Part shown: positions 373-24,261 of the stretch, piece by piece
Layout of the letters: the number at the start of each line of letters is the position of its first letter
How positions within the stretch are numbered: position 1 is the stretch's first letter
Virus record (IMG/VR): IMGVR_UViG_3300042380_001025
Location: 1 to 24,261 of that record
Length of the DNA stretch: 24,261 nt
Direction: 5' to 3' (one strand)
DNA from: a virus
Notes under the pieces: generated by a model
Databases searched by the model: none
Told to the model about the DNA's origin: nothing
Seen by the model: the letters and a program-made list of their open reading frames with translations, nothing else
Position numbers and translations under genes: made by a program

Positions 373-684
373 TCACAGAACTCGATAAACGCGCGCTTCG
401 CCGGCCACCTTGTTCGAGGCAATCGTCAGGCCGAGTCGCTTTTTGAACGTGCCGGCGAACGTGCCGCGCACGGTGTGGGGCTGCCAGCCTGTGGCTTCGC
501 AGATTTGCGCGACCGTGGCCCCTTCCGGGCGACGAAGTAGTCGCAGCACTTCGGCCTGCTTGCTGTCGGCGCGCCTCGTGGGCGCCTGTGGGGCCGTGGG
601 GGCAAGGCGTTGCGCAGGTTTTGCCTTCGCACTGTGACCGCCGTCTTTCGGGGATCGCTTGGCGTTCGGTGCTTTCTTGCTCAT
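373..684 (-). CDS. DUF3489 domain protein
   Basis: A 103-residue basic protein. Residues 1-45 are a low-complexity K/A/P/R-rich tail. Residues 46-103 match the DUF3489 pattern: SKQAEVLRLLRRPEGATVAQICEATGWQPHTVRGTF..., ending in KRLGLTIASNKV and YRVL. The segment has the look of a winged-helix or helix-turn-helix fold (ATVAQICEATGW as the first two helices, QPHTVRGTFAG as the recognition helix), so DNA binding is plausible but not demonstrated. The start is the ATG at 684, with an AGGA site about 8 bases upstream; extension to 756 is possible but lacks support. It is transcribed away from the terminase genes. DUF3489 genes are common near phage and integrative-element genes in proteobacteria. 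A regulatory role on the phage is inference only. Confidence 0.75.
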   Translation of the reverse strand: MSKKAPNAKRSPKDGGHSAKAKPAQRLAPTAPQAPTRRADSKQAEVLRLLRRPEGATVAQICEATGWQPHTVRGTFAGTFKKRLGLTIASNKVAGEARVYRVL

Positions 685-798
685 GGTCAAAGTCCTCGTG
701 CGGGTGGATTGGTTAATCAACGCGCCGATGAACGCTTCGTTCGCGATCAATAGCAACTCGCTCTTACCGAGCCGAAACCTGCAGGAATTGATGGGCTA
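685..798. promoter_or_regulatory. Divergent intergenic region with a near-palindrome
   Basis: This gap lies between the leftward DUF3489 gene and the rightward terminase genes, so promoters for both directions could sit here, and in lambda-type phages the cos site lies just before the small terminase gene. The one structural signal I see is TTGGTTAATCAA at 709-720, a 12-base dyad that is symmetrical at 10 of 12 positions, which could be an operator. I do not see a convincing -35/-10 pair or a cos-like cohesive-end sequence. Confidence 0.25.
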
Positions 799-1335
799 AT
801 GGGGATCTCAATTCGCGCTTACGGGCGCCATCGCGGCGTTTCGGATGCGGCGGTTCGTAAGGCGATTGCCGCAGGCAGAATCACCCCCGAGCCGGACGGC
901 ACGATTGATGTCGCCGAGGCTGATCGGCAGTGGGCCGAGAACACTGAAGCGCCGCGCGTTGGTACCCGTGCGCGGGCGGTGCAGGCACCTACTGCGTCGA
1001 GCGAGCCAACAGCGAGTGATGTCAGCGCTCCGCTACCTGGCGGCGGCACATCGCTCCTGCAGGCGCGCACGGTGAACGAGGTGGTCAAGGCCCAAACCAA
1101 TCGGGTTCGTTTGGCGCGTCTCAAAGGTGAGTTGGTCGATCGCGCTCAAGCGATGGCCCATGTATTCAAACTCGCGCGGACCGAGCGTGATGCGTGGCTC
1201 AACTGGCCCGCGCGAGTGTCGGCGCAGCTCGCCGCAAAGCTAGAGGTTGATCCGCACACGATGCACATCTCACTTGAGGCTGCGGTGCGCGAGCATCTAC
1301 AGGAACTTGGCGAGATGCGGACGCGCATCGATTGA
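799..1335 (+). CDS. terS: Terminase small subunit (Nu1-like)
   Basis: A 178-residue protein that would recognise the phage packaging site and bring the large terminase subunit to it. The N-terminal 45 residues look like a winged helix-turn-helix: ISIRAYGRHRGVSDAAVRKAIAAGRITP, with a following strand (GTIDVAEADRQW), the arrangement seen in Nu1-type small subunits. A proline/alanine/threonine-rich linker (about 55-90) leads to a helical C-terminal half (TVNEVVKAQTNRVRLARLKGELVDRAQAMAHVF), probably for oligomerisation and TerL contact. The start is the ATG at 799 with AGGA at 783-786; an ATG nine bases earlier hits a stop after two codons. It overlaps the start of the large subunit gene by a few bases, implying coupled translation. 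The assignment rests on the HTH, length and position directly before TerL. Confidence 0.8.
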   Translation: MGISIRAYGRHRGVSDAAVRKAIAAGRITPEPDGTIDVAEADRQWAENTEAPRVGTRARAVQAPTASSEPTASDVSAPLPGGGTSLLQARTVNEVVKAQTNRVRLARLKGELVDRAQAMAHVFKLARTERDAWLNWPARVSAQLAAKLEVDPHTMHISLEAAVREHLQELGEMRTRID

Positions 1336-3293
1336 GCACTTCGATGCTTTACGAGGGTGCGGCCGAAATTGAGCGCGCGTGGCGCGAGGGGCTGACGCCC
1401 GATCCACTGTTGACCGTATCGGAGTGGTCCGATCGACATCGAGTGCTTTCGAGCAAAGCCTCTGCGGAGCCCGGTCGGTGGCGCACGAGTCGAACACCGT
1501 ATCTGAAGGCCATCATGGATTGCCTCTCACCGAGCTCGCCGATCGAGCGGGTGGTGTTCATGAAGGCGGCGCAGCTTGGTGCGACGGAGATGGGCTCAAA
1601 CTGGATTGGTTATGTCATCCATCATGCGCCGGGTCCCATGATGGCGGTGTGGCCGACCGTCGAGATGGCCAAGCGCAACTCGAAGCAAAGAATTGATCCA
1701 CTGATTGAGGAGTCGCCGGCGCTCCTTGAGCTGATCGCACCGGCGCGCTCGCGCGACTCGGGCAACACGATTCTTGCCAAGGAGTTTCGCGGTGGCGTGC
1801 TCGTCATGACAGGCGCCAACAGTGCCGTCGGTCTTCGCTCGATGCCGGTGCGATATCTCTTTTTGGACGAGGTCGATGGATATCCGCTCGATGTCGAGGG
1901 GGAGGGCGATGCGATCTCGCTCGCCGAGGCGCGAACGCGCACTTTCGCGCGGCGGAAGATCTTTCTCGTTTCAACACCCACGATCTCGGGGGCGAGCGCT
2001 ATCGAGCGCGAGTACGAAGCAAGCGATCAACGTCGCTACTTCGTGCCTTGCCCGCACTGCTCACATCGGCAGTGGCTTCGATTCGATCGATTGAGATGGG
2101 AGAAGTCGGAGCCCGAGACGGCCGCCTATCTTTGCGAGTCCTGCGATGAGCCGATTGCGGAGCATCACAAGACATGGATGCTTGAGCACGGTGAGTGGCG
2201 CGCGATGCAGCCGGAGCACGGGTTGCGAACGGCAGGATTTCATCTCTCCTCACTCTATAGCCCGGTCGGCTGGCGCAGCTGGCGAGAGATCGCTCTCGCG
2301 TGGGAGGCTGCCGTGAGCAAGGAGACAGGTTCAGCATCGGCGATCAAGACGTTCAAGAACACCGAACTTGGCGAGACATGGGTCGAGGAGGGCGAAGCGC
2401 CTGACTGGCAGCGGCTCCTTGAGCGGCGTGAGGACTACCCGATCGGATCATTGCCATTAGGCGCGCTCTTGCTCGTCGGTGCCGCCGATGTGCAAAAGGA
2501 TCGGATCGAGGCGTCCATCTGGGCGTTCGGTCGCGGCAAAGAGTCCTGGCTCATCGAGCATCGGGTGTTGATGGGCGATACCGCACGAGATGCAGTGTGG
2601 GCGGCATTGTCGAAGATGCTCGCCGAAAGATGGCGACATGTGTCAGGCGCTGAAGTGCCACTCGCACGCTTTGCGATCGATACCGGGTACGCGACACAAG
2701 AGAGCTACGCATTTGTACGCTCATCGCGTGATCCGCGAATTATGGCGATCAAGGGTGTTCCTCGTGGAGCCGCGCTGATCGGTACGCCGACCGCAGTAGA
2801 TCTGACGGTAGCGGGCAAAAAACTTCGCCGCGGTATCAAGGTATACGCCGTCGCAGTCGGTATCGCGAAGCTCGAGATCTACAACAACCTACGCAAGAGC
2901 CCCGAGGTCGCCGAGGACGGAGTGAGCGTGCGGTATCCGGGCGGGTACGTGCATCTACCGAAGGTCGACGCGGAGTACCTGCATCAGCTGTGCGCAGAGC
3001 AGTTGATCACACGACGTAACCGCAACGGATTTCCGATTCGTGAGTGGCAAAAGATACGCGAGCGAAACGAGGCGCTTGATTGCTACGTGTACGCCCGAGC
3101 GGCCGCGAGTGCCGCGGGGCTCGATCGATTCGAGGAGCGGCACTGGCGAGAGCTCGAGCGACAGCTCGGGGTCGAAACCAAGCCATCAACTCCAAGCGAA
3201 CCGCCTGCGAGCGAGGAGGCTCCTGTGATCGGGAATCCCGAGACACGCGCGCTATCGCGCCGCGTCATCAAGAGCCGCTGGTTAACCCGATAG
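1332..3293 (+). CDS. terL: Terminase large subunit (gpA family)
   Basis: A 653-residue DNA-packaging motor and nuclease of the lambda gpA family. The ATPase half has a divergent Walker A region (FMKAAQLGATE, residues 76-86) and a clear Walker B with catalytic acid (YLFLDE, 175-180). A four-cysteine zinc-ribbon follows (CPHC at 240-243 and CESC at 268-271). The C-terminal nuclease half carries the acidic motifs GAADVQKDR (about 383-391) and FAIDTGY (447-453), expected to bind the metal that cuts concatemeric DNA. Length is normal for the family. Two starts are possible: TTG at 1332, overlapping the terS stop as TTGA, or ATG at 1344. Neither has a strong ribosome binding site, and ATG 1344 could be the true one. 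It acts with TerS at the portal vertex. Identity is very secure; the exact start is not. Confidence 0.95.
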   Translation: MSTSMLYEGAAEIERAWREGLTPDPLLTVSEWSDRHRVLSSKASAEPGRWRTSRTPYLKAIMDCLSPSSPIERVVFMKAAQLGATEMGSNWIGYVIHHAPGPMMAVWPTVEMAKRNSKQRIDPLIEESPALLELIAPARSRDSGNTILAKEFRGGVLVMTGANSAVGLRSMPVRYLFLDEVDGYPLDVEGEGDAISLAEARTRTFARRKIFLVSTPTISGASAIEREYEASDQRRYFVPCPHCSHRQWLRFDRLRWEKSEPETAAYLCESCDEPIAEHHKTWMLEHGEWRAMQPEHGLRTAGFHLSSLYSPVGWRSWREIALAWEAAVSKETGSASAIKTFKNTELGETWVEEGEAPDWQRLLERREDYPIGSLPLGALLLVGAADVQKDRIEASIWAFGRGKESWLIEHRVLMGDTARDAVWAALSKMLAERWRHVSGAEVPLARFAIDTGYATQESYAFVRSSRDPRIMAIKGVPRGAALIGTPTAVDLTVAGKKLRRGIKVYAVAVGIAKLEIYNNLRKSPEVAEDGVSVRYPGGYVHLPKVDAEYLHQLCAEQLITRRNRNGFPIREWQKIRERNEALDCYVYARAAASAAGLDRFEERHWRELERQLGVETKPSTPSEPPASEEAPVIGNPETRALSRRVIKSRWLTR

Positions 3294-9264: not shown

Positions 9265-9657
9265 ATGAGCACGAGAGACCTTGAGACGATCTTCCCGCAG
9301 GGGCAAATACTCGACATCGGCGGGCAGCGAATAGAGATCCGACCGCTGGTTCTCGGAGAGCTTCCGGCGATGCTGCGGGCGATTCGCCCCTTCGCTAGCG
9401 AGCTCTCTGCGGAGCCTGACTGGCTTGCTTTACTCGCAGAGCACGGCGAGGCACTCCTTAGGGCATTGGCAATCGCCAGTCATCGTTCCGATGACTGGGT
9501 GGCCTCTCTCGAGCTCGACGATGCCATTACGCTAGGGGCCGCTGTCTTTGAGGTAAATGCCGATTTTTTCGTGTGCCGGGTCGCCCCGAAAGTCGGCGAT
9601 CTGGCGCAGCAGATCGGCCAGCGACTCAGCAGTGGTTCGATGCTATCGCCCGGCTAA
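9265..9657 (+). CDS. Tail assembly chaperone (gpG-like)
   Basis: A 130-residue acidic, helical protein directly after the tail tube gene and before the tape measure region, the place of lambda gpG. It starts with a strand-like segment (GQILDIGGQRIEIRPLVLGELPAMLRAI) and continues in helices ending with VFEVNADFF, a sequence I recognise from tail assembly chaperones of other proteobacterial phages. Such proteins coat the tape measure during assembly and are absent from the virion. In most phages of this kind a fraction of ribosomes shift -1 near the end to make a G-T fusion. Here a second overlapping frame continues to 9857, and a canonical slip site is present at 9564-9570. Confidence 0.75.
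   Translation: MSTRDLETIFPQGQILDIGGQRIEIRPLVLGELPAMLRAIRPFASELSAEPDWLALLAEHGEALLRALAIASHRSDDWVASLELDDAITLGAAVFEVNADFFVCRVAPKVGDLAQQIGQRLSSGSMLSPG
9564..9570 (+). promoter_or_regulatory. Candidate programmed -1 ribosomal frameshift site (TTTTTTC)
   Basis: Codons GAT TTT TTC in the gpG-like frame give the heptamer T-TTT-TTC, which satisfies the X-XXY-YYZ slip rule: both phenylalanine tRNAs can re-pair after moving back one base. Six bases downstream, CGGG (9577-9580) can pair with CCCG (9585-9588) across a four-base loop; alternatively GCCG (9575-9578) can pair with CGGC (9594-9597). No other canonical heptamer lies in the overlap of the two frames. The site is at codon 102 of 130, earlier than in lambda, which lowers certainty. 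Confidence 0.5.
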
Positions 9658-9857
9658 TTCGTGCCGGGCATCGGCTTGAGGACATCCGCACCTACACGCT
9701 CGGGCAAGTGAACGGCTTTCTCGCAGCAGACCGCCGACTCCAGTTCGAGCGCTTATCGATGCAACTCACGTTAGGGAGCGCAGCAGCCCAAGGCAGCACC
9801 GAGAGTATTCGTCGACTACGCGCAGACCTTGATCGGGAGGCAGATCGTGAAGATTGA
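9570..9857 (+). CDS. gpT-like -1 frame extension of the tail assembly chaperone
   Basis: An open -1 frame relative to the gpG-like gene, running from the slip site to a stop at 9857. It would give a 197-residue G-T fusion (102 residues of G plus 95). The conserved-looking portion is WFDAIARLIRAGHRLEDIRTYTLGQVNGFLAADRRLQFERL, a helical domain resembling the second chaperone product in related phages, followed by a charged helix (SIRRLRADLDREADRED). The only early independent start, GTG at 9573, has no ribosome binding site, so frameshifting is favoured over separate initiation. Residues encoded between 9570 and about 9630 (arginine/serine-rich) look less natural than the zero frame, so the shift may occur later than the slip site I name. 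Confidence 0.6.
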   Translation, partial: RVPGRPESRRSGAADRPATQQWFDAIARLIRAGHRLEDIRTYTLGQVNGFLAADRRLQFERLSMQLTLGSAAAQGSTESIRRLRADLDREADRED

Positions 9858-10494
9858 TCTCGTATCACAAGGGCTACTCGATCAGCGCCGATTCGATACC
9901 TGGCGACGCGACACGCAGCAGGCGATGCGTAAAGCGACTGCGCGCGCGATGCGCGAGAGCGGTCAGCAGATCGCGAGCGAGGTTCGCGTCGATATGGCGA
10001 GCGGCTTTCGCTCTGCGAGCCCCGCGTTTTTGCGCTCCATGCGAAGTAAGGTGTTTGATCGTAAGCCTAACCAGTTTCCGGCGCTCTATATCGGATCAAA
10101 GATCCCGTGGCTTGGGATTCATATGCAAGGCGGCACGATACGGGGCCGAATGCTGATCCCGCTATTGCCCGAGGGTCAGAGAGTGGGGCGAAAGGCGTTT
10201 GCGCGGATCGTGAACGCGCTGATGCGGTCGGGAAACGCGTGGTTTATTGAAAAGAATGGCCAGCGAATTCTCATGGCAGAGAATCTTGCGGAGAACGCAG
10301 CGCCCCTGGGGCGGTTTCGACGTGCTGAGCGATTGCGTAGCGGCCTTAAAAGACTGCCGCGAACGCGAGAGATTCCGATTGCCGTTCTCGTGCGATCCGT
10401 GACGCTTAAGCGACGATTCGATCTGCTTCGCGTGGTACGCAGCGCTCTGCCGCGCCTCTCGTCGGCGCTTTCCCGAGCGCTACGGGCGATCTGA
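9847..10494 (+). CDS. DUF6441-type minor tail protein
   Basis: A 215-residue strongly basic protein that resembles the phage DUF6441 family found between the tail chaperones and the tape measure. The N-terminal KIDLVSQGLLDQRRFDTWRRDTQQAMRKATARAMRESGQQIASEVRVDM is helical, followed by PNQFPALYIGSKIPWLGIHMQGGTIRGR, a strand pair with a glycine-rich turn, and RILMAENL. The last 60 residues are very arginine-rich. The GTG start at 9847 follows GGGAGG at 9835-9840 with ideal spacing; the gene overlaps the T-like frame by 11 bases. The function is not known; a minor tail or assembly role is inferred from position. Confidence 0.7.
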   Translation: MKIDLVSQGLLDQRRFDTWRRDTQQAMRKATARAMRESGQQIASEVRVDMASGFRSASPAFLRSMRSKVFDRKPNQFPALYIGSKIPWLGIHMQGGTIRGRMLIPLLPEGQRVGRKAFARIVNALMRSGNAWFIEKNGQRILMAENLAENAAPLGRFRRAERLRSGLKRLPRTREIPIAVLVRSVTLKRRFDLLRVVRSALPRLSSALSRALRAI

Positions 10495-10497
10495 CCG

Positions 10498-13400
10498 ATG
10501 GCGAATAATCGCGCGCAAATACTGATCACGGCAGTCGATGAGACGCGCCGAGCGTTTCAGTCGATCAATGGCAGTTTAAGCCAGTTGCGCGATCAGGCGG
10601 GACAGGTGAGCTCGGTGCTCTCGCGCATAGGCGCGGCAGTCGGTGTGGGGCTCGGTGCGCGCGAGCTCATCACGATTGCCGATCAGTACAAGAACCTCCA
10701 GTCACGCCTTCGGCTCGCGGTAACTTCGCAAGCTGAGTTCAACCTCGCGCAGAACGAACTCTTTCAAATTGCACAGCGCAATCGCGCTCCGCTTGCCGAG
10801 ACCGTCACGCTTTACGCGCGCCTAGCCCCTTCAGTACAAGCGCTCGGGCGGTCGCAGGCGGAGGTGCTTGCGGCCACAGACGCTATCGGACAGGCGGTCG
10901 CACTGTCGGGCGCGTCGGCCGAGGCCGCCTCGGCTGCGCTGGTGCAGCTCGGACAGGCTTTTGCTTCGGGGCAACTGCGCGGCGAGGAGTTCAACTCGGT
11001 CATCGAGCAGACACCGCGCCTTGCGCAAGCGATTGCCGATGGCATGGGCGTTTCACTCGGATCGCTACGCGCGCTCGCCAAAGAGGGTAAAGTCACTTCG
11101 CAAGCGGTGCTGGATGCATTGCTGACGCAGCGGGAGCGACTGGCAGCAGAGTACGGGAGCCTTCCCGATACTGTCTCCGGAGCGATCACTCGGTTAAAGA
11201 ACGCGTTCCAGCGCGCGCTTGGAGAACAAGACGCGGGATTGGGGGTGACCTCGGGACTCGCGCAGGCGATTCAATTGATCGCTGCCCGACTTGATGTGCT
11301 GATCAATCTCGCCGGCATCGCCCTCGTGGCTGCATTTGGTCGAATGGTCAGTGCGTTTTTTGCCAGTATCGCCGCGACGCGTGCCGAGACGGTGGCGCGG
11401 ATTGCCAACCTGCGTGTCCTTGAGACAGAAGCTATCGCTCGTGCGGCACTCGCGCAGGCCGCTCTCACTCAGGCTCAAGCCCAAGGGGTAGCAACGGCGA
11501 CGCTCGCCGCCGATCTCGCGCGCGCTCAGGCGCAGGCGAGTGCGGCAAGCGTGGCGCTCGCCAGTGCAACAGCTGCCTCAAGCCTATTTGGCCGAGTCGT
11601 CGGGACTTTGCGTTCGATCCTTGCGCTCTTGGGCGGTCCTGTCGGCCTGTTGGTCACCGCGGTGACGCTGCTGGCAGGCGCGATTTACTCGGCACGTGAC
11701 GCGGTAGTGGAGTTTGGGGGTCGGACGGCCTCACTTCGGCAGATTGTGCGAGCGACGTGGGATCTCGCCCTGGAGAAGTTGCGGGATTTTGGCGCAGCGC
11801 TCACCGATCTCTTCGGCTTAAGCGGCATCTCATGGGCGGGTATTCGCGACTCGGCGGTAACCGCGCTCGAGTTTATTGGGAGCGCGTTTCGCACGCTCAT
11901 CAACACCGCGCTGGGTGCGTTCACAGCGATCGGCCAGACGGCGAGTATTGCCGCAGGGTTTCTCACGGAGCGGTTTCGTAACGCTTTCGCCGATATCCGA
12001 TCGTTCACGCGCGCGCTTAATGAAGATCTCGCTCGCGTATTCGCTGGCGATTTCTCCATGACGGCGCTTGAGGGCTCGCTTGGACGAAGTGCGAGTCGGT
12101 TACGTGCGATCGGAGGCGATCTCGCGGCAGCTGTCCGCGAGTCGTTTGCACGTGATTACGTCGGTGAAGCCGCTGCGGCGATCGCGCGGCGCATCCGACC
12201 AGACGCTGCGTCCACTGCGCTTTTTGGGCAGACACAGCGAGGTTCAGATCGCACCACCGCCGAAACCAGCGCGACAGCGAGAGCGACTCTCGAGCAGGCG
12301 CAGGCGGATGCACAGTTCAAGATTCTGAAAGACGCGCTCGATCGTCAGACCCGCGCGATTGACCAGGCGCTTGAGGATCGACTGATATCGCTCGCGGAGT
12401 ATTACGCGGCAAAGACTCGGCTTGAACAGACTGAGATCGACGCTGAGATCGCCCGCAATCAGCGCGCACTCGATGCGCAGCAAAGAAGCGTAGATCTCGG
12501 TAAAGACGAGGCCGCAAAACTTAAAGCGCAAGGCGAGATCGCCAAGCTCGAAGCTGAGCTTATCGTGTTGAATACGCGTCGCGCCGATGTCGAGGTGCGT
12601 AATGCACGTCGCGCTGCCGATGCCGAACGGGATCTGCGCGACGAGCTTGCCAAGGTGCGTGCGGAATTACTGGATCTGACGGGGGTGTCCTCGAGTGCCG
12701 ATCGTCGAGGGGCGATCGAGCGCCAGTACGAGCCGCTGCTCGCACGTCTTCGCGCCGAAGATGATACCGAGGGCGTCACTACCGTCGGGCGGCTGATTGA
12801 TGTTAAGGCGGCAAGTGCAGATCTTGCTGCGTACGAGGAGCAATTCAATCTCGCGCTCTCGCGCATGCGTACGACTGAAGAGTCGATCAATGTGCAGCGT
12901 GAGACCGGTCTCTTAACCGAAGCGCAAGCGCGCACGGCAATCCTCACATTGCATCGCGAGACGGCGATCGCGTTAGAGGCAATCCTTCCTCAACTCGAGG
13001 CCGCTGCGATGGCGATCGGGCCGGACGCGGTCGCCCGCGTGCAGGCGTGGCGTAACGAGATGGCGCAGGTCAAGGTCGTCGTGGATGACGTTGCGCTCGC
13101 GATTGATGGCGCCGTTCGTGATGGATTTGCGCAACTCTTTGAAGACATCGGGCGAGGAGCGAAGTCCGCCAAGGATGCATTTGGCGATTTCGCCCGATCG
13201 GTGCTCCAAGCGATAAATCGGATTGCCTCGCAAAAGCTTGCCGAATCGCTCTTTGCACGGCTCTTTGGTAGTCCCACAGGTGCAGGTGGGGGCGGATTAG
13301 GGGCGTTCATCTCGTCGCTTCTCGGCTTTGCATCAGGGGGCTATGTCCGCGGCCCCGGAAGTTCAACGAGCGACTCCATTCCGGCGCGACTCTCTGATGG

Positions 13401-13692
13401 CGAGTACGTGATCAATGCTCGGGCGGTCAGTCGCGTCGGAGTGTCTTTTCTGGATGCGCTCAACGGCTTATCGATCGGTCCGCAAGTGAGAGGTCCCGCT
13501 CTGGCCTTTGCGTCAGGTGGTCTCGTGACGACGCCCGCAGAGCCGCCCGCATCGGGACAAAACATCCGGATCGTCAACGTGATTGATCCAGCGATGGCGG
13601 CGGACTATCTCAGCAGCAGTGCAGGAGAGCGTGTGGTGATGAATCTGATCCAGCGTAACGCGACATCGGTACGCAACATTCTGGGGCGCTAA
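10498..13692 (+). CDS. Tape measure protein
   Basis: A 1064-residue protein that sets tail length and is threaded through the tail tube. Residues about 60-250 match the tape-measure N-terminal domain (YKNLQSRLRLAVTSQAEF, LAPSVQALGRSQAEVLAATDAIGQAVALSGAS..., RGEEFNSVIEQTPRLAQAIADGMG). Hydrophobic segments near 265-293 and 373-400 may help DNA cross the inner membrane. Alanine/glutamine-rich coiled coils occupy about 290-360 and 590-720. Near the C-terminus (about 944-995) is the widely shared motif GGYVRGPGSSTSDSIPARLSDGEY. At about 0.15 nm per residue it predicts a tail of roughly 160 nm. It starts three bases after the DUF6441 stop. Confidence 0.95.
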   Translation: MANNRAQILITAVDETRRAFQSINGSLSQLRDQAGQVSSVLSRIGAAVGVGLGARELITIADQYKNLQSRLRLAVTSQAEFNLAQNELFQIAQRNRAPLAETVTLYARLAPSVQALGRSQAEVLAATDAIGQAVALSGASAEAASAALVQLGQAFASGQLRGEEFNSVIEQTPRLAQAIADGMGVSLGSLRALAKEGKVTSQAVLDALLTQRERLAAEYGSLPDTVSGAITRLKNAFQRALGEQDAGLGVTSGLAQAIQLIAARLDVLINLAGIALVAAFGRMVSAFFASIAATRAETVARIANLRVLETEAIARAALAQAALTQAQAQGVATATLAADLARAQAQASAASVALASATAASSLFGRVVGTLRSILALLGGPVGLLVTAVTLLAGAIYSARDAVVEFGGRTASLRQIVRATWDLALEKLRDFGAALTDLFGLSGISWAGIRDSAVTALEFIGSAFRTLINTALGAFTAIGQTASIAAGFLTERFRNAFADIRSFTRALNEDLARVFAGDFSMTALEGSLGRSASRLRAIGGDLAAAVRESFARDYVGEAAAAIARRIRPDAASTALFGQTQRGSDRTTAETSATARATLEQAQADAQFKILKDALDRQTRAIDQALEDRLISLAEYYAAKTRLEQTEIDAEIARNQRALDAQQRSVDLGKDEAAKLKAQGEIAKLEAELIVLNTRRADVEVRNARRAADAERDLRDELAKVRAELLDLTGVSSSADRRGAIERQYEPLLARLRAEDDTEGVTTVGRLIDVKAASADLAAYEEQFNLALSRMRTTEESINVQRETGLLTEAQARTAILTLHRETAIALEAILPQLEAAAMAIGPDAVARVQAWRNEMAQVKVVVDDVALAIDGAVRDGFAQLFEDIGRGAKSAKDAFGDFARSVLQAINRIASQKLAESLFARLFGSPTGAGGGGLGAFISSLLGFASGGYVRGPGSSTSDSIPARLSDGEYVINARAVSRVGVSFLDALNGLSIGPQVRGPALAFASGGLVTTPAEPPASGQNIRIVNVIDPAMAADYLSSSAGERVVMNLIQRNATSVRNILGR

Positions 13693-13694
13693 CA

Positions 13695-14666
13695 ATGGCG
13701 TGGACTTCAGGGACCTCGACGAACGCGAGTGATCTTTTCGACAAACTGATCACGTTCTTGACGACGAACGCGTCGCTCGTAGCGGCAGGGGAGGCGTGGA
13801 CGCTCCTTCGGCGCGATACCTTTACCGCCGATACAAAGCGCGACTTGGCTGAACTACGGGGGCCGGGCTCCTCCGCCGGCGATGCAATCTACGTCCAGAT
13901 CTCGTTGCTCGCCGATGCCGCCGCACCGGCTTATTCGATACGGGTGCTCGGGTCGCAGTCATGGCTGAGTAGTACGCCGATCATCAACCCCGAATCGCAG
14001 CCGGGGAGCATTCAAAGCGGAGCAGGCTCTCTCGGGATTTTGCCCCGTATGCCGATCTTCAATAGCGCGATCAGCTACTGGTTTATCGCCAATGGCAGAC
14101 GGTTCATGGTCATTGCTAAATCCTCGGCCTACTGGGGTTCGCTCTATGCCGGTTTTCTCATGCCGTACGCCACGCCGTCACAGTATCCCTATCCGCTTTT
14201 TATCGGCGCGAATACCTCTCGCGGCGATAACTATCAAAGTGCCGACTTGGATATTGCGGGGTCCGCCCTCTGGCGTAATGACGGCGAGTTCAGCGCGTTC
14301 GGTGCGGGACTGCTCCAACCTAGCGGCGGATGGATTGGCACTAACCGATTTGATTCGACCTATACGGGCCGAACGTGGCCATGGGCGATGTCACTAGAGG
14401 CGAGAAAGATCAGCCTTGGTCGCTTTGAGTTAGGGGCATTAACGCAGCTACCGAGTGGTGAAAGTCCACTCCTTCCGGCGATTCTTTACAACGCCGCAAG
14501 CACGATGCCTTTCACCATTTGGGGTGAGTTACAGGGGGTGTATGCCGTGCCGGGATTTGGTGTTGCTGCCGGCGATACGGTCACGGCCTCGGGGAAGTCA
14601 CATCTGGTGGTCCAAGCAGCGAGTTCCACCAACGCAGCGCGCTTCGCTGCCTTTGAACTTATCTAG
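13695..14666 (+). CDS. Phage tail protein, function unknown (first of a related pair)
   Basis: A 323-residue strand-rich protein without a signal peptide or catalytic motif. The central segment SYWFIANGRRFMVIAKSSAYWGSLYAGFLMPYATPSQYPYPLFIGAN (about 133-178) is typical of a group of virion-associated proteins found just after the tape measure in proteobacterial siphophages. It begins MAWTSGTSTNASDLFDKLITFL, which resembles the start of the next gene (MAYVIGASADISTLLTAIKNFA), and the following YWFIANG... aligns with YAYHLFSNGDFVHVVIE there, so the two are probably ancient duplicates. It starts three bases after the tape measure stop. A structural role in the tail tip or fibre is inferred from place and composition only. 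Confidence 0.6.
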   Translation: MAWTSGTSTNASDLFDKLITFLTTNASLVAAGEAWTLLRRDTFTADTKRDLAELRGPGSSAGDAIYVQISLLADAAAPAYSIRVLGSQSWLSSTPIINPESQPGSIQSGAGSLGILPRMPIFNSAISYWFIANGRRFMVIAKSSAYWGSLYAGFLMPYATPSQYPYPLFIGANTSRGDNYQSADLDIAGSALWRNDGEFSAFGAGLLQPSGGWIGTNRFDSTYTGRTWPWAMSLEARKISLGRFELGALTQLPSGESPLLPAILYNAASTMPFTIWGELQGVYAVPGFGVAAGDTVTASGKSHLVVQAASSTNAARFAAFELI

Positions 14667-14674
14667 AGGGCGCT

Positions 14675-15820
14675 ATGGCTTATGTTATCGGTGCGTCAGC
14701 GGATATCAGTACGCTGCTGACTGCTATCAAAAACTTTGCAGTTGCGAACGGCTGGACCGCAAATGCGACCGATACCACGACATTGACCTTTTCCAGTACC
14801 ACCAGCAACGGAAACGCGAGCCACATCAATACGCTCTCCATGGTGTCATCGGTCAGCTCGTCCGATGCTTACGATAACCAGGGAGAGTCGAGTTTGTCGG
14901 CAAGCCGAGTCGTTCTGACAAAGAATGGCGTTTCATATCAGATCCTTGCCTATAACAAAAAACTCTATAAAAACGGAGTCAGTGGCACTTATTCATGTCT
15001 GGAGGCGTGGGTCTGTGATGGATTCAACGCGGGCGTTGCCGCAAACCTTCAAACTAACAACAGAAAGTTTTCGCTCATTGGTCCTCTTGCAACCTCGATC
15101 TACGCATACCACCTGTTCTCCAACGGCGATTTCGTGCACGTGGTCATCGAGGAAACTATCGGCCGATTTCGGCATCTGTCTTTTGGCTTCATAAAAAAGT
15201 ATGGCACGTTCGCCGGCGGTCAATACCTGACAGCAGGTACGCCAATTGAGTCTTTCACTACGAGTGCGTCGGCATTCAACACGTCAACGGCAATGGTGCC
15301 GTTCGGATCAAACGCACAAAACGCAAGTCGCCCTGGTATCGCCTCTAGTGCTTATCCCGGTACGTACGTCCGCGCTGATATTGATGGGTGGACAATCGGA
15401 TGGCGCTTGATCTCAATCAACACGTACTTTGATTCGTCACAGATGGACGCCTATGGCTGTTCGGTTTACTCGAACACGGTCAACGGCAGAGCGGGGTATC
15501 TGTCCTCAGGGATGCAGGTTTCCATGAGTACGCTTGGCCACGACATCGGTTACCACTGCTCTCCGCAGAACTACAACGGCCTCGCGCCGATGCTTCCTTG
15601 TTACGTCGGGGTATATCGCTCGCCGTATAACACGACCTGGACACTACTCGGTGAATTCCCAGACGTTCGATTTCTCAATATCTCGAACTACAACGCCGGG
15701 GAGGAGATCACGCTTGGTACCGATACGTGGAAAATCTTTCCGTTATGGAACAAGAGCTATACAGTCACGTCCGAGCCCGTGAGTTACGACTACGGTATTG
15801 CCTATCGAAAGGTGGTCTAA
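14675..15820 (+). CDS. Phage tail protein, function unknown (second of a related pair)
   Basis: A 381-residue serine/threonine/tyrosine-rich protein. The N-terminus (SADISTLLTAIKNFAVANGWTANATDT) is a helix followed by strands; IYAYHLFSNGDFVHVVIEETIGRFRHLSFGFIKKYG (about 144-179) is the most conserved-looking part, followed by GGQYLTAG. The C-terminus ends W-KIFPLWNKSYTVTSEPVSYDYGIAYRKVV. The polar, tyrosine-rich content suits a surface-exposed tail component that may touch the host. Its DNA looks somewhat less GC-rich than its neighbours, in line with exchange of host-range genes. The next gene starts directly after its stop. No enzymatic motif is seen. Confidence 0.6.
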   Translation: MAYVIGASADISTLLTAIKNFAVANGWTANATDTTTLTFSSTTSNGNASHINTLSMVSSVSSSDAYDNQGESSLSASRVVLTKNGVSYQILAYNKKLYKNGVSGTYSCLEAWVCDGFNAGVAANLQTNNRKFSLIGPLATSIYAYHLFSNGDFVHVVIEETIGRFRHLSFGFIKKYGTFAGGQYLTAGTPIESFTTSASAFNTSTAMVPFGSNAQNASRPGIASSAYPGTYVRADIDGWTIGWRLISINTYFDSSQMDAYGCSVYSNTVNGRAGYLSSGMQVSMSTLGHDIGYHCSPQNYNGLAPMLPCYVGVYRSPYNTTWTLLGEFPDVRFLNISNYNAGEEITLGTDTWKIFPLWNKSYTVTSEPVSYDYGIAYRKVV

Positions 15821-21373: not shown

Positions 21374-21673
21374 ATGAACGATGTTCAGATTCGCCCTCGT
21401 GACGATAGTCCGCTCGTACTTCGCGCCGAGGATCTTGATGAGCTTCTTGCCCGTGCCGCACAGCGCGGTGCAGAGCATGCGCTCGCTTCGCTTGGCTTGG
21501 AGAACGGGCACGCTGCGGAAGACATTCGCGATCTGCGGAGCCTCATTGACTCGTGGCGCGAGGCGCGTCGTACGGCGTGGCAGACGGTGATCAAGGTGGT
21601 GACGACGGGCATCTTGGCGGCGCTTCTGGTGGGCGCAGCGATCAAGTTTCGTCTGATGGGAGAGCCACAATGA
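21374..21673 (+). CDS. DUF6127 family membrane protein
   Basis: A 99-residue protein that resembles the DUF6127 family, found in phage lysis regions. Residues 15-65 form a charged amphipathic helix region (AEDLDELLARAAQRGAEHALASLGLE and DIRDLRSLIDSWREARRTAW). Residues about 70-92 (QTVIKVVTTGILAALLVGAAIKF) are one hydrophobic membrane span close to the C-terminus. That makes it a candidate holin partner or antiholin-like protein, but no function is proven. GGGAG at 21362-21366 lies seven bases before the ATG, inside the foot of the terminator. Its stop overlaps the following ATG (ATGA), implying coupled translation. Confidence 0.72.
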   Translation: MNDVQIRPRDDSPLVLRAEDLDELLARAAQRGAEHALASLGLENGHAAEDIRDLRSLIDSWREARRTAWQTVIKVVTTGILAALLVGAAIKFRLMGEPQ

Positions 21674-22146
21674 TCGAGACACTCCTGGGCGGTGCATTAG
21701 GGGGTGCTTTTCGCCTGGCTCCCGAGGTCCTGAAATGGTTCGACCGCCAAGGAGAGCGTGGCCACGAGTTGGCCATGCAGGACAAGGCGCTCGAGTTTGA
21801 GAAACTTCGTGGTGCTCAACGCATGTCCGAGATCGGAGCAGCTGCCGATGGCGCATGGAATACAGGCGCAATCGAAAATCTTCGCGATGCTGTGCGCACT
21901 CAGGGTGAAAAAACTGGGGTTGCCTGGGCCGATGCACTTTCCAGCACAGTTCGCCCAGTGATCACCTATTGGTTCATGGCGCTGTATTGCGCGGCGAAGA
22001 CGGCAGCATTCGCGGCGGCTTTGTCTGCCGGTGCTGACTGGGGTACGGCAGTTCTGCACGCCTGGACTGAAGCCGACCAGGCGCTGTGGGCCGGGGTCCT
22101 GAACTTTTGGTTCTTGGGCCGCGTGTTTGACAAGGTTCGGCCGTGA
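21670..22146 (+). CDS. Holin-like phage membrane protein
   Basis: A 158-residue protein that begins METLLGG-type (MIETLLGGALGGAFRLAPEVLKWFDRQGERGHELAMQDKALEFEKLRGAQRM), a pattern I know from proteins encoded just before lysozymes in proteobacterial prophages. Predicted membrane segments are about 95-118 (RPVITYWFMALYCAAKTAAFAAAL) and 137-152 (QALWAGVLNFWFLGRV), with an amphipathic N-terminal helix. It could form the inner-membrane holes that let the lysozyme out; many annotations call these proteins holins, although direct proof is rare. Start ATG 21670 overlaps the preceding stop; its own stop overlaps the lysozyme GTG. The upstream extension in this frame lies within the previous gene and is not supported. 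Confidence 0.68.
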   Translation: MIETLLGGALGGAFRLAPEVLKWFDRQGERGHELAMQDKALEFEKLRGAQRMSEIGAAADGAWNTGAIENLRDAVRTQGEKTGVAWADALSSTVRPVITYWFMALYCAAKTAAFAAALSAGADWGTAVLHAWTEADQALWAGVLNFWFLGRVFDKVRP

Positions 22147-22598
22147 TCGATGTTCCGCAAGCAGCTATCGACTTGGCTAAGCGCTTCGAGGGATTCTGCC
22201 GAGTGCCCAAGTCAGACCCTGATCGTGCTTATCCGTATGTCTGTCCGGCAGGGTTTTGGACCATTGGGTACGGTCATCTTTGCGATCCCAAGCATCCGCC
22301 AATAACCAGATTAGAGGGCGAGGCATATTTGGAGACCGACATGGGAGACGCTCTAAGAGCCGCACTGCGGTACTGTCCGGTACTGGCCTCTGAGCCAGAG
22401 GGGCGGCTTGCGGCCATTGTTGACTTCACCTTCAACCTCGGAGCCGGTCGGCTACAGACGTCAACGCTTAGGCGGCGGGTCAATCAACGGGACTGGACTG
22501 GAGCAGCGCAGGAGTTGCGTCGCTGGGTTTACGGTGGCGGCAGACTGCTGCGTGGATTGGTGCTTAGACGCGAGGCAGAGGCTGTCTTGATTGAATAA
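22143..22598 (+). CDS. Endolysin, GH24 lysozyme
   Basis: A 151-residue muramidase that hydrolyses the beta-1,4 bond between N-acetylmuramic acid and N-acetylglucosamine in the cell wall. The catalytic glutamate is E16 in KRFEGF. The substrate pocket motif is CPAGFWTIGYGH (34-45), giving an E16...C34-x5-T40 arrangement with Cys in place of the usual Asp, as in P1-type lysozymes. VDFTFNLGAG and GGGRLLRGLVLRREAE are the normal family end motifs. There is no signal or signal-anchor segment, so it needs a holin to leave the cytoplasm. GTG at 22143 overlaps the holin-like stop. No Rz/Rz1 spanin is visible downstream. Confidence 0.93.
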   Translation: MIDVPQAAIDLAKRFEGFCRVPKSDPDRAYPYVCPAGFWTIGYGHLCDPKHPPITRLEGEAYLETDMGDALRAALRYCPVLASEPEGRLAAIVDFTFNLGAGRLQTSTLRRRVNQRDWTGAAQELRRWVYGGGRLLRGLVLRREAEAVLIE

Positions 22599-22753
22599 GT
22601 TGATCTTGTTGTTGGTTTTCGGTCATCACCGGGCATTCGATCCCAATGGGTGGGCAGCAGGTTAAGGCTGATTGCAGTCGTTGAAACCTTGGTCGCCCGA
22701 GCCCATTTTTGAGCGGTTAAACTCATTTTTAGACAGCAATTGAGGTAAGTAGC
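22599..22753 (+). other. Spacer between lysozyme and decarboxylase genes
   Basis: No gene and no hairpin terminator is visible here. TTGAAA at 22681-22686 could be a -35 element for the decarboxylase gene, but I cannot pair it with a good -10. AGGTAAG some nine bases before the ATG at 22754 serves as ribosome binding site. This is where phage-like composition gives way to that of the next gene, so a boundary may lie here. Confidence 0.3.
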
Positions 22754-23968
22754 ATGGACAAGGAATTCGCCATCAACTCTGACGGGTTGCATCAGGCCGT
22801 TGAGTTGATGAGTCGTGATTTCAGTAACGCGGCAGGTCTTGACCTGCCGCTAGAACTACCACAGTTCGGGGTTGGTTCCACGGGTGCACTGAATTCGCTG
22901 GCGCCTAGCATTCTTGGGGGCGCGGCGCGTTTGGGCGAGGCTACATCATTTGCGCACATGGACCCGCCAACTCCATGGATAACTTGGGCTATTACGCTTT
23001 GGAACGCATCGCTCAACCAGAACCTCCTTCATCCCGCCACAGCACCTGTTGCTCGCCAACTGGAAGAACGGGCCGTGGCATGGCTTGCTCCCTTTTTTGG
23101 CATGAATGGCGGACACATGACGCCCGGTTCGACTGTGGCCAATTTGACCGCATTATGGTCCGCGCGAGAGTGCGCTGGCATTACGGAGGTGATTGCATCA
23201 GACGGAGCGCATCTTTCCATTGCAAAGGCGGCTCATATCTTGGGTCTCAAATACCTGAGTGTGCCCATAGACGCCAATGGCTCGATGGACGCGGCGCGGT
23301 TGCCGACCAACTTGAGCAATTCCGCTCTGGTCCTCACCGCCGGTGCAACCAGTACAGGCGCAATAGACCCATTTGACTTAGCCGGTAGGGCAGCTTGGAC
23401 TCATGTAGACGCCGCCTGGGCCGGTCCTTTACGGATGAGTAATTACGCCAATCTACTTGCCGGTATTGAGTCGGCGGACTCTGTTGCCGTATCTGCACAT
23501 AAGTGGCTTTTCCAACCAAAAGAGTCTGCGCTTGTATTGTTCAAGAACACCGAGAAGGCCCACGCGGCGGTTAGTTTCGGTGGAGCGTACCTTGCCACAC
23601 CCAATGTTGGAGTTCTTGGTTCCCATGGTGCAGCTGCCACGGCCCTTCTGGCAACGCTGCTTGCATGGGGGCGTGAAGGGGTTGCTCAGCGCATCGAGCA
23701 CTGCATGGACCTTGCACGTTGCTTGAGAGATTTTGTGGTTGCTGACGAGCGCCTTGAGCTTTATGCGGAACCCCGAACGGGTATTGTGGTCTGGCGGCCT
23801 AAGAACGAGAACTTGTTTGACCAGGTACTGCACAAGATGCCTCTTGGTTCCACGTCTACAACAACAATTGCGGGTATCAAGTGGTTCCGCAACGTGGCGG
23901 CCAATCCCAGTGCAGACATTGACCTGCTTATTGCAGCCATCCAGGGGGCCTTACCTGAGCGTGCTTAG
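22754..23968 (+). CDS. Group II pyridoxal-phosphate-dependent decarboxylase
   Basis: A 404-residue PLP enzyme of the glutamate/aromatic amino acid decarboxylase group. Expected residues are present: GSTVANLTAL (125-134), His153 in DGAHLSIAKAA for stacking on the cofactor ring, TAGATSTGAIDP (195-206), Asp219 in THVDAAWAGP for the pyridine nitrogen, and Lys250 in SAHKWLFQP for the Schiff base. It would remove CO2 from an amino acid; the substrate cannot be told, and some members have other activities. It is shorter than typical members (about 450-500 residues), lacking part of the C-terminal domain. Ribosome binding site AGGTAAG. Composition (about 52% GC in a sampled line, no GATC) is unlike the phage genes. 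It may be lysogenic cargo or host sequence beyond the prophage. Confidence 0.9.
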   Translation: MDKEFAINSDGLHQAVELMSRDFSNAAGLDLPLELPQFGVGSTGALNSLAPSILGGAARLGEATSFAHMDPPTPWITWAITLWNASLNQNLLHPATAPVARQLEERAVAWLAPFFGMNGGHMTPGSTVANLTALWSARECAGITEVIASDGAHLSIAKAAHILGLKYLSVPIDANGSMDAARLPTNLSNSALVLTAGATSTGAIDPFDLAGRAAWTHVDAAWAGPLRMSNYANLLAGIESADSVAVSAHKWLFQPKESALVLFKNTEKAHAAVSFGGAYLATPNVGVLGSHGAAATALLATLLAWGREGVAQRIEHCMDLARCLRDFVVADERLELYAEPRTGIVVWRPKNENLFDQVLHKMPLGSTSTTTIAGIKWFRNVAANPSADIDLLIAAIQGALPERA

Positions 23969-24055
23969 TTCGCGCTCAATGGCTGCTATCGCTGCGAAGT
24001 TGTCCATCATGCAGATGAACGGAATTTCTGCACAGGGTAGATTTCGATCGGTCAT
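23951..24055 (-). CDS. Possible 34-residue ORF overlapping the decarboxylase end
   Basis: A short antisense frame, from ATG at 24055 to TAA at 23951, gives a 34-residue peptide beginning MTDRNLPCAEIPF and ending with a helix-like IERELSTLR. It overlaps the last 18 bases of the decarboxylase gene. No ribosome binding site is seen upstream of the ATG and I do not recognise the sequence, so it may be chance. It is listed because it is the only frame with protein-like character in the final 300 bases. Confidence 0.2.
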   Translation of the reverse strand: MTDRNLPCAEIPFICMMDNFAAIAAIERELSTLR

Positions 24056-24261
24056 AAGGATTTGAGCGGGATTTGCAAATGAAATGGCAGTTCGAAATAA
24101 GAAAAAAACAATTAGCCGTCCTAACATTTAGAATCACGTTTTGGACCCCAAGTGCTTAAACGGCTTGCCCTTGGGAAATTAGACGGTTTGTGATGAGGGG
24201 TGTTCTGCCCCGCCATTTACTGCGCTGTGAACTCGCTCAGCCCGTTTTAAGCGCGCGCGGA
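23969..24261. other. AT-richer right flank without a clear gene
   Basis: No convincing gene is seen apart from the tentative 34-residue antisense frame. Part of it is about 43% GC, clearly lower than the rest of the window, and it includes an A-rich run near 24102-24109. CCCAAG (24147-24152) and CTTGGG (24170-24175) form a weak six-base inverted repeat without a following T-tract, so it is not a convincing terminator. No tRNA or attachment-site duplication is visible. Confidence 0.4.

Follow-up and report, generated by a model that had tools for sequence, protein, structure and literature searches.

A bacterial-type decarboxylase gene as probable prophage cargo between a phage lysozyme gene and a dispersed repeat

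The window analysed here, a complete virus record of 24,261 bp that holds the late region of a phage from terminase to lysozyme, carries behind its lysozyme gene an intact gene for a group II PLP-dependent decarboxylase. Sequence comparison indicates that this gene probably lies inside the prophage, as cargo. It is read as cargo because sister prophages end at a dispersed repeat of about 94 nt, and the window's only copy of that repeat lies beyond the decarboxylase. An earlier sequence-only reading had left two possibilities, a lysogenic conversion gene inside the prophage or a marker of the host edge; the position of the gene relative to the prophage-ending repeat now favours the first, short of proof.

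In the explanation that we propose, the phage would be a temperate one that infects a Burkholderiales bacterium, and the decarboxylase would be its moron, housed in a variable slot that runs from the lysozyme gene to the right terminus marked by the repeat (Table 1). The gene would have come from a bacterial chromosome as a compact, intact unit with its own leader, and in the lysogen it would be transcribed either from that leader or by late-operon transcription that reads through into it; a promoter consensus scan gave no candidate better than chance. The enzyme would then use PLP chemistry to strip an amino acid of its alpha-carboxyl group and so supply the lysogen with an amine. We infer the inside position of the window copy, as well as its expression and any benefit to the lysogen. 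If the gene does lie inside, lysogeny brings the host an intact amino-acid decarboxylase and with it a possible change in amine production or acid tolerance.

Table 1 Features of the window around the decarboxylase gene and of the phage region
Feature	Position	Strand	Basis or remark
Large terminase subunit	1332-3293	+	PHROG phrog_15, E 1e-267; 25 GATC
Conserved phage protein upstream of lysozyme	21670-22146	+	phrog_6637, E 5e-56; no known function
Phage lysozyme (endolysin), last recognisable phage gene	22143-22598	+	PF00959, 104.7 bits; phrog_7
Lysozyme-to-unit gap, 65 bp	22599-22663	+	Sister-prophage spacer of ~230 bp not recognisable
Decarboxylase 5' leader	22666-22753	+	Homologous to leaders of chromosomal copies (blastn)
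Group II PLP-dependent decarboxylase, 404 aa	22754-23968	+	PF00282; best Foldseek matches PLP decarboxylases; dN/dS 0.09-0.14
3' end of unit common to chromosomal copies	23969-23995	+	blastn
Segment ahead of repeat	24011-24122	+	Homologous to intergenic DNA of host genome G479 (89%, counted with the repeat)
Dispersed ~94-nt repeat; marks the right terminus in sister prophages	24123-24215	+	DNA search, query 22590-24261
Presumed host flank, 46 bp	24216-24261	+	Inferred from divergence point in sister prophages

An intact gene of bacterial type

The open reading frame starts with ATG, encodes 404 aa without an internal stop, and lies on the same strand as the lysozyme gene, which ends 155 bp upstream, as had been noted from the letters alone. 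Its product matches the Pfam family PF00282 (Pyridoxal_deC) with 108.7 bits at a gathering cut-off of 27. The PLP-binding or catalytic residues H153, D219, H249 and K250 and the loop residue Y279 are invariant across 23 aligned decarboxylase sequences, which, together with the unbroken frame, bears out the earlier description of an intact gene with all PLP-binding residues. We take K250 to be the Schiff-base lysine, D219 the PLP-binding aspartate, H153 the ring-stacking histidine and Y279 the loop tyrosine; a phmmer alignment pairs Y279 with the 4rit tyrosine that is changed by the Y333Q mutation in 4riz. The AlphaFold model has a mean pLDDT of 83.4, with values below 50 at residues 68-91 and at residues 276-283, the latter around Y279. 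The gene had also been called short, and it is so beside the seven best PDB sequences (475-497 aa), but not within its own family, where the matches in 80 fetched loci cover 374-404 residues and the shortest of them ends at a contig end. Full family length and a dN/dS of 0.09-0.14 against six homologues rule out a truncated or decayed enzyme, and by these substitution ratios the family is under purifying selection.

The base composition of the gene is less telling than had been supposed. The GATC counts themselves hold, with none in the 1,215 bp of the decarboxylase gene and 25 in the 1,962 bp of the terminase gene, or one per 78 bases. The accompanying claim of a foreign composition, however, is not established: synonymous-codon shuffles of the gene (2,000 trials, mean 2.39 GATC) give zero in 5.4% of cases, 15 chromosomal homologues contain 0-5, and the GC content of 0.560 is not outside that of the phage's own genes, which span 0.512-0.639 among those measured. 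GATC avoidance is as such a weak sign of origin, and it is homology, not composition, that identifies the gene as one of bacterial type.

This homology was traced in a single scan of a one-genome-per-species collection, which may omit records very near to the query and which gave 162 decarboxylase relatives, 80 of them kept. Among these best 80 of 162, the closest 18 have 79-94% protein identity, are mostly betaproteobacterial by title (three are titled Hyphomicrobiales, Gammaproteobacteria and 'proteobacterium') and include many lake or pond MAGs. At the DNA level, the match to chromosomal copies forms a discrete unit, 22666-23995, which includes the 5' leader and is 80-92% identical in L002-L016 (L numbers denote fetched loci, G numbers genomes). 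Specifically, blastn homology begins at 22666-22672 for L002, L003, L006, L012, L014 and L183 and ends at 23991-23995 for L002, L003, L005, L011 and L012. When 18 sequences are compared pairwise, the common stretch begins no more than 82-89 bp ahead of the start codon even in the best pairs, closer to it in the remaining ones, and runs on for as much as about 27 bp past the stop, with mostly different surroundings; the exceptions are common upstream DNA in L005, L008, L009 and L013, common downstream DNA in L007/L008 and L018/L019, and one nearby gene in some pairs. Close copies occur in 5 of 399 genomes of one family, in 3 of 89 genomes of one genus, where a fourth stands at 66%, and in 1 of 90 genomes of another genus. 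Such patchy occurrence of a short unit in differing surroundings makes this seem a stand-alone gene that moves horizontally.

The closest homologue, at 92% DNA identity (L011, 1-1122), sits in a contig binned as a gammaproteobacterium, and the other 136 genomes of its family gave no comparable copy; transfer or misbinning may account for it. In L038, the decarboxylase adjoins genes for a pyridoxamine-oxidase-like protein, an FMN-binding PaiB-type protein and a GntR/aminotransferase (MocR-type) regulator, and PaiB-type neighbours similar to these were read by eye in L006, L007 and L008. This suggests an amine- or vitamin-B6-linked gene context in some hosts, which the window copy is without. 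The L038 cluster (10055-14973; decarboxylase at 62% aa identity, PNPOx-like, PaiB-type and MocR-type genes) immediately adjoins a related prophage at its lysozyme end and is a second pairing of the decarboxylase family with this phage family.

The phage family and its variable slot

Viral relatives of the phage were gathered with three queries. Matches to PF00239 and PF07508 identify a large serine recombinase gene near the left end of the relatives L153 and L355, so the family is probably temperate. In host genome G576, a prophage shares 99% identity with L355 in its recombinase and 86% with the window in its lysozyme. A tyrosine integrase (PF00589) was found in two of 16 relative records, one of them over the cut-off, and the Mu-type transposase PF02914 in none of the 16, which is uninformative since 14 control genomes had none either. 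A search for closer prophages in 399 bacterial genomes of one family gave only relatives at 34-42%, in nine genomes. Next to the lysozyme, the region of the phrog_6637 protein gene is matched in 20 viral loci at 96-99% identity; the protein is holin-like by position only. At the other end of the window, a DUF3489 protein is encoded just ahead of the terminase genes (373-756, minus strand), with a similar one readable in L153. The left, recombinase end of relatives carries large accessory blocks that look defence-like by eye (L372, 9214-20000, and L375); these blocks differ between G576 and G479, and G567 has host-like cobalamin genes in their place.

The DNA behind the lysozyme varies from relative to relative. 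The 167 lysozyme loci reduce to 98 distinct post-lysozyme sequences, with 31 loci that have no DNA past the lysozyme counted as one sequence and many viral loci being the same record fetched twice. Among the 95 sequences long enough for comparison, 35 have no near-start DNA in common with another, and 60 fall into 15 groups of 2 to 16 members. PADLOC models place a type III restriction enzyme after the lysozyme in L095, a IIG enzyme in L088, and a CBASS cyclase plus 2TM effector in L082, a close phage relative, where they lie directly past the lysozyme (9513-11159). Pfam matches give ChrB and a chromate transporter ahead of the repeat in L282, a UvrD-like helicase ahead of the repeat in L288, and a sigma-54-activator (RtcR-like) protein past the lysozyme in L283. 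A DUF411 cargo is common to viral record L287 and host genome G567 (84.9%) and sets in 144 and 62 bp past the lysozyme, respectively; the decarboxylase unit sets in at about +66.

The most direct view of such cargo comes from L283, L292 and host genome G576, in which the same 5.1 kb cargo and the repeat follow the lysozyme. Identity is 95.1% between L283 and L292 up to the end of the repeat, 90.1% between G576 and L283 to 7 bases past it, and 90.5% between G576 and L292 to a point inside it. Because the three then continue into different DNA (1,224, 185 and 5,325 bp, all different), the 5.1 kb cargo travels with the phage, and this comparison shows that cargo in the post-lysozyme slot can move with it. 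The decarboxylase itself is not a conserved gene of the phage family, a candidate ruled out because tblastn gave no match in 185 viral loci and pattern-based scans gave no other viral contig with it. In a phage collection there were four matches, 25% identical, in records named Acinetobacter phage MD-2021a.

A repeat at the end of sister prophages

Four distinct sister records have the repeat downstream of their lysozyme gene, and it is present in 5 of 29 close records, window included, with one copy each at the lysozyme end. In L181 and L185, prophages of host genomes G601 and G731 from two genera, the lysozyme gene, a spacer of 236-237 bp and the repeat are homologous at 85.6%, and the homology stops at the end of the repeat. 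Together with those of L283, L292 and G576, which represent another prophage type, these pairwise divergences, which fix the right ends, show that the repeat is the right terminus of five sister prophages. Ten distinct viral records have a lysozyme at ≥86% identity and more than 1 kb past it; three of them have the repeat, and seven have none over 1.3-3.3 kb, which longer cargo or another end type would each explain. L292, with its lysozyme at 85%, is a fourth viral record with the repeat. L082, with 8.4 kb past the lysozyme, holds only the last bases of the repeat, and the 384 bp past the lysozyme of L084 hold a kinase-like ORF and no repeat.

Near decarboxylase genes the repeat is rare, so a chance copy 155 bp past the window's decarboxylase is unlikely. 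At E 1e-5, there was no match in 1,485,564 bp of 92 loci, mostly decarboxylase flanks, that were fetched regardless of the repeat (the count excludes L371, a locus with a repeat-bearing prophage of its own), and the flanks of 80 chromosomal decarboxylase loci gave one 23-base match at E 0.008. G622, of the same genus as the repeat-bearing G479, has no repeat past its decarboxylase within the 1.5 kb fetched. Elsewhere, 29 out of 90 genomes in one Burkholderiales genus contain the repeat (a 30th matched the decarboxylase only), and several of them have co-oriented copies 2.7-8.7 kb apart, with copy numbers that are lower bounds because at most three candidates per genome were scored. Repeats of this family also lie between ordinary host genes and in chromosomal clusters, and the 112 bp ahead of the window's repeat have a chromosomal counterpart in G479, where 20 kb contain no lysozyme.

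As to the nature of the repeat, an integron attC is not supported. The integron integrase model TIGR02249 was matched over its cut-off in none of 31 genomes, 23 of them repeat-bearing; IntI-like pieces below it scored 172 bits in G631, which has repeats, and 141 bits in G574, which has none. The consensus fold is weak, and 18 copies contain no pair changed on both sides. A known RNA was rejected as well, since 22580-24261 has no Rfam match at E up to 5. No second copy turned up in any record that was searched over its full length, nor in the left-hand regions of G576, G567 and G479, so a duplicated att site is not established.

Two further patterns were noticed. In four distinct places, the repeat is followed exactly 72 bp on by a convergent 110-aa gene, AlpA-like by our own reading and without a Pfam match; this observation covers the window's repeat (24123-24215), L138/L188, L167, L169, L189, L381 and L382. 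Furthermore, phage L299 and the L038 prophage (14369-14511) have a second sequence, of 143 bp, that begins where the lysozyme gene stops. In L003 (5292-5433), where there is no lysozyme, this sequence recurs 91 bp ahead of the decarboxylase unit; a 59-bp piece of it (76%) lies beside the MocR-type gene in L006 (4022-4080).

Inside the prophage or beside it

The alternative that survives best, although we consider it unlikely, is that the decarboxylase is ordinary host DNA: the prophage would end at 22599-22664, integrated upstream of a chromosomal decarboxylase that happens to stand beside a dispersed repeat, and the gene would mark the edge. The unit with its leader is indeed chromosomal in type, given its 80-92% DNA identity in L002-L016, and repeats of the same family do occur between ordinary host genes, but the repeat is absent at E 1e-5 from the flanks of those 80 chromosomal decarboxylase loci. 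Likewise, 7 of 10 close viral records lack the repeat in the 1.3-3.3 kb past the lysozyme, and pattern-based scans found no second phage with the decarboxylase, whereas the five sister prophages L181, L185, L283, L292 and G576 end at the repeat, and the window's single copy lies on the far side of the decarboxylase. In L038, about 180 bp separate the MocR-type gene of the PaiB/MocR/decarboxylase cluster from the lysozyme end of the related prophage beyond it, which is readable as integration beside such a locus.

The left end of the window's prophage is missing, and neither an attL nor an empty site was seen. Next to the ~65-bp gap that takes the place of a recognisable sister-prophage spacer, the DUF411 cargo of G567 is comparable in likewise beginning so close to the lysozyme. 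The same gene in the same place in strains without the prophage, which had been proposed as the mark of host sequence, did not appear in the genomes fetched. Among 19 genomes with homologues, the 18 closest included, 18 had no match to this phage's terminase and one had a distant match at 35%; none of the 19 is shown as the same place, because their decarboxylase neighbourhoods mostly differ from each other.

With the window copy read as prophage cargo, the question arises how cargo enters the slot. One improbable answer is that the repeat is a recombination site common to the phage family and Burkholderiales chromosomes, at which cargo would be exchanged with the slot in a cassette-like manner and with no classical integron integrase. 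Prophages would end at the repeat, co-oriented copies would space chromosomal gene modules, and decarboxylase, chromate efflux and defence genes would swap between chromosomes and the slot through it. A chimeric contig, in which phage and bacterial reads were misjoined at about 22600-22664 or at the repeat, is very unlikely: dispersed repeats break or mislead assembly, and the record ends 46 bp past one, but the order of lysozyme, cargo and repeat agrees with independent viral records and host genomes.

The repeat-bounded slot, or the dispersed repeat itself, is a more interesting lead than the decarboxylase. As a candidate recombination site, the repeat links prophage ends with chromosomal modules, and the slot can serve as a cargo finder when DNA is read from this lysozyme to the terminal repeat.

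Comparison with known systems

Prophage morons, or lysogenic conversion genes at a prophage end, are a known kind. The decarboxylase resembles them as a bacterial-type gene in a variable prophage-end slot where sister prophages carry other cargo, and it differs in being a single-gene amino-acid decarboxylase with its own leader, in a slot bounded by a dispersed repeat. Titles and abstract openings in the literature name neither this decarboxylase gene nor the repeat, which is no proof of absence in print.

Nearest in structure are bacterial PLP decarboxylases, found with Foldseek at E 6e-22 to 6e-19 (TM-score by query 0.65-0.70, 21-30% identity) and, among PDB sequences, with phmmer at E 1e-25 to 6e-16. 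Fold and catalytic residues are alike in 4rit/4rj0 (Sphaerobacter thermophilus), 4obv (tryptophan decarboxylase of Ruminococcus gnavus) and 2qma (a diaminobutyrate decarboxylase), and the window enzyme is about 70-90 residues shorter than these. As a member of this enzyme family, it likely decarboxylates an amino acid. Which one is not readable from family models, because the scores lie far below the equivalog cut-offs, at 114.7 bits against 900 for the L-2,4-diaminobutyrate decarboxylase (RhbB) model NF052646 and 85.5 bits against 299.4 for the tyrosine decarboxylase MfnA model TIGR03812.

According to PMC9992855, viruses encode functional amino-acid decarboxylases, including those for ornithine and arginine. 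The viral polyamine enzymes described there have the alanine-racemase fold or are pyruvoyl enzymes, whereas the window enzyme belongs to group II and has the aspartate-aminotransferase fold. Taken together, prophage cargo and phage-borne amino-acid decarboxylases are already known, and this decarboxylase is a new member.
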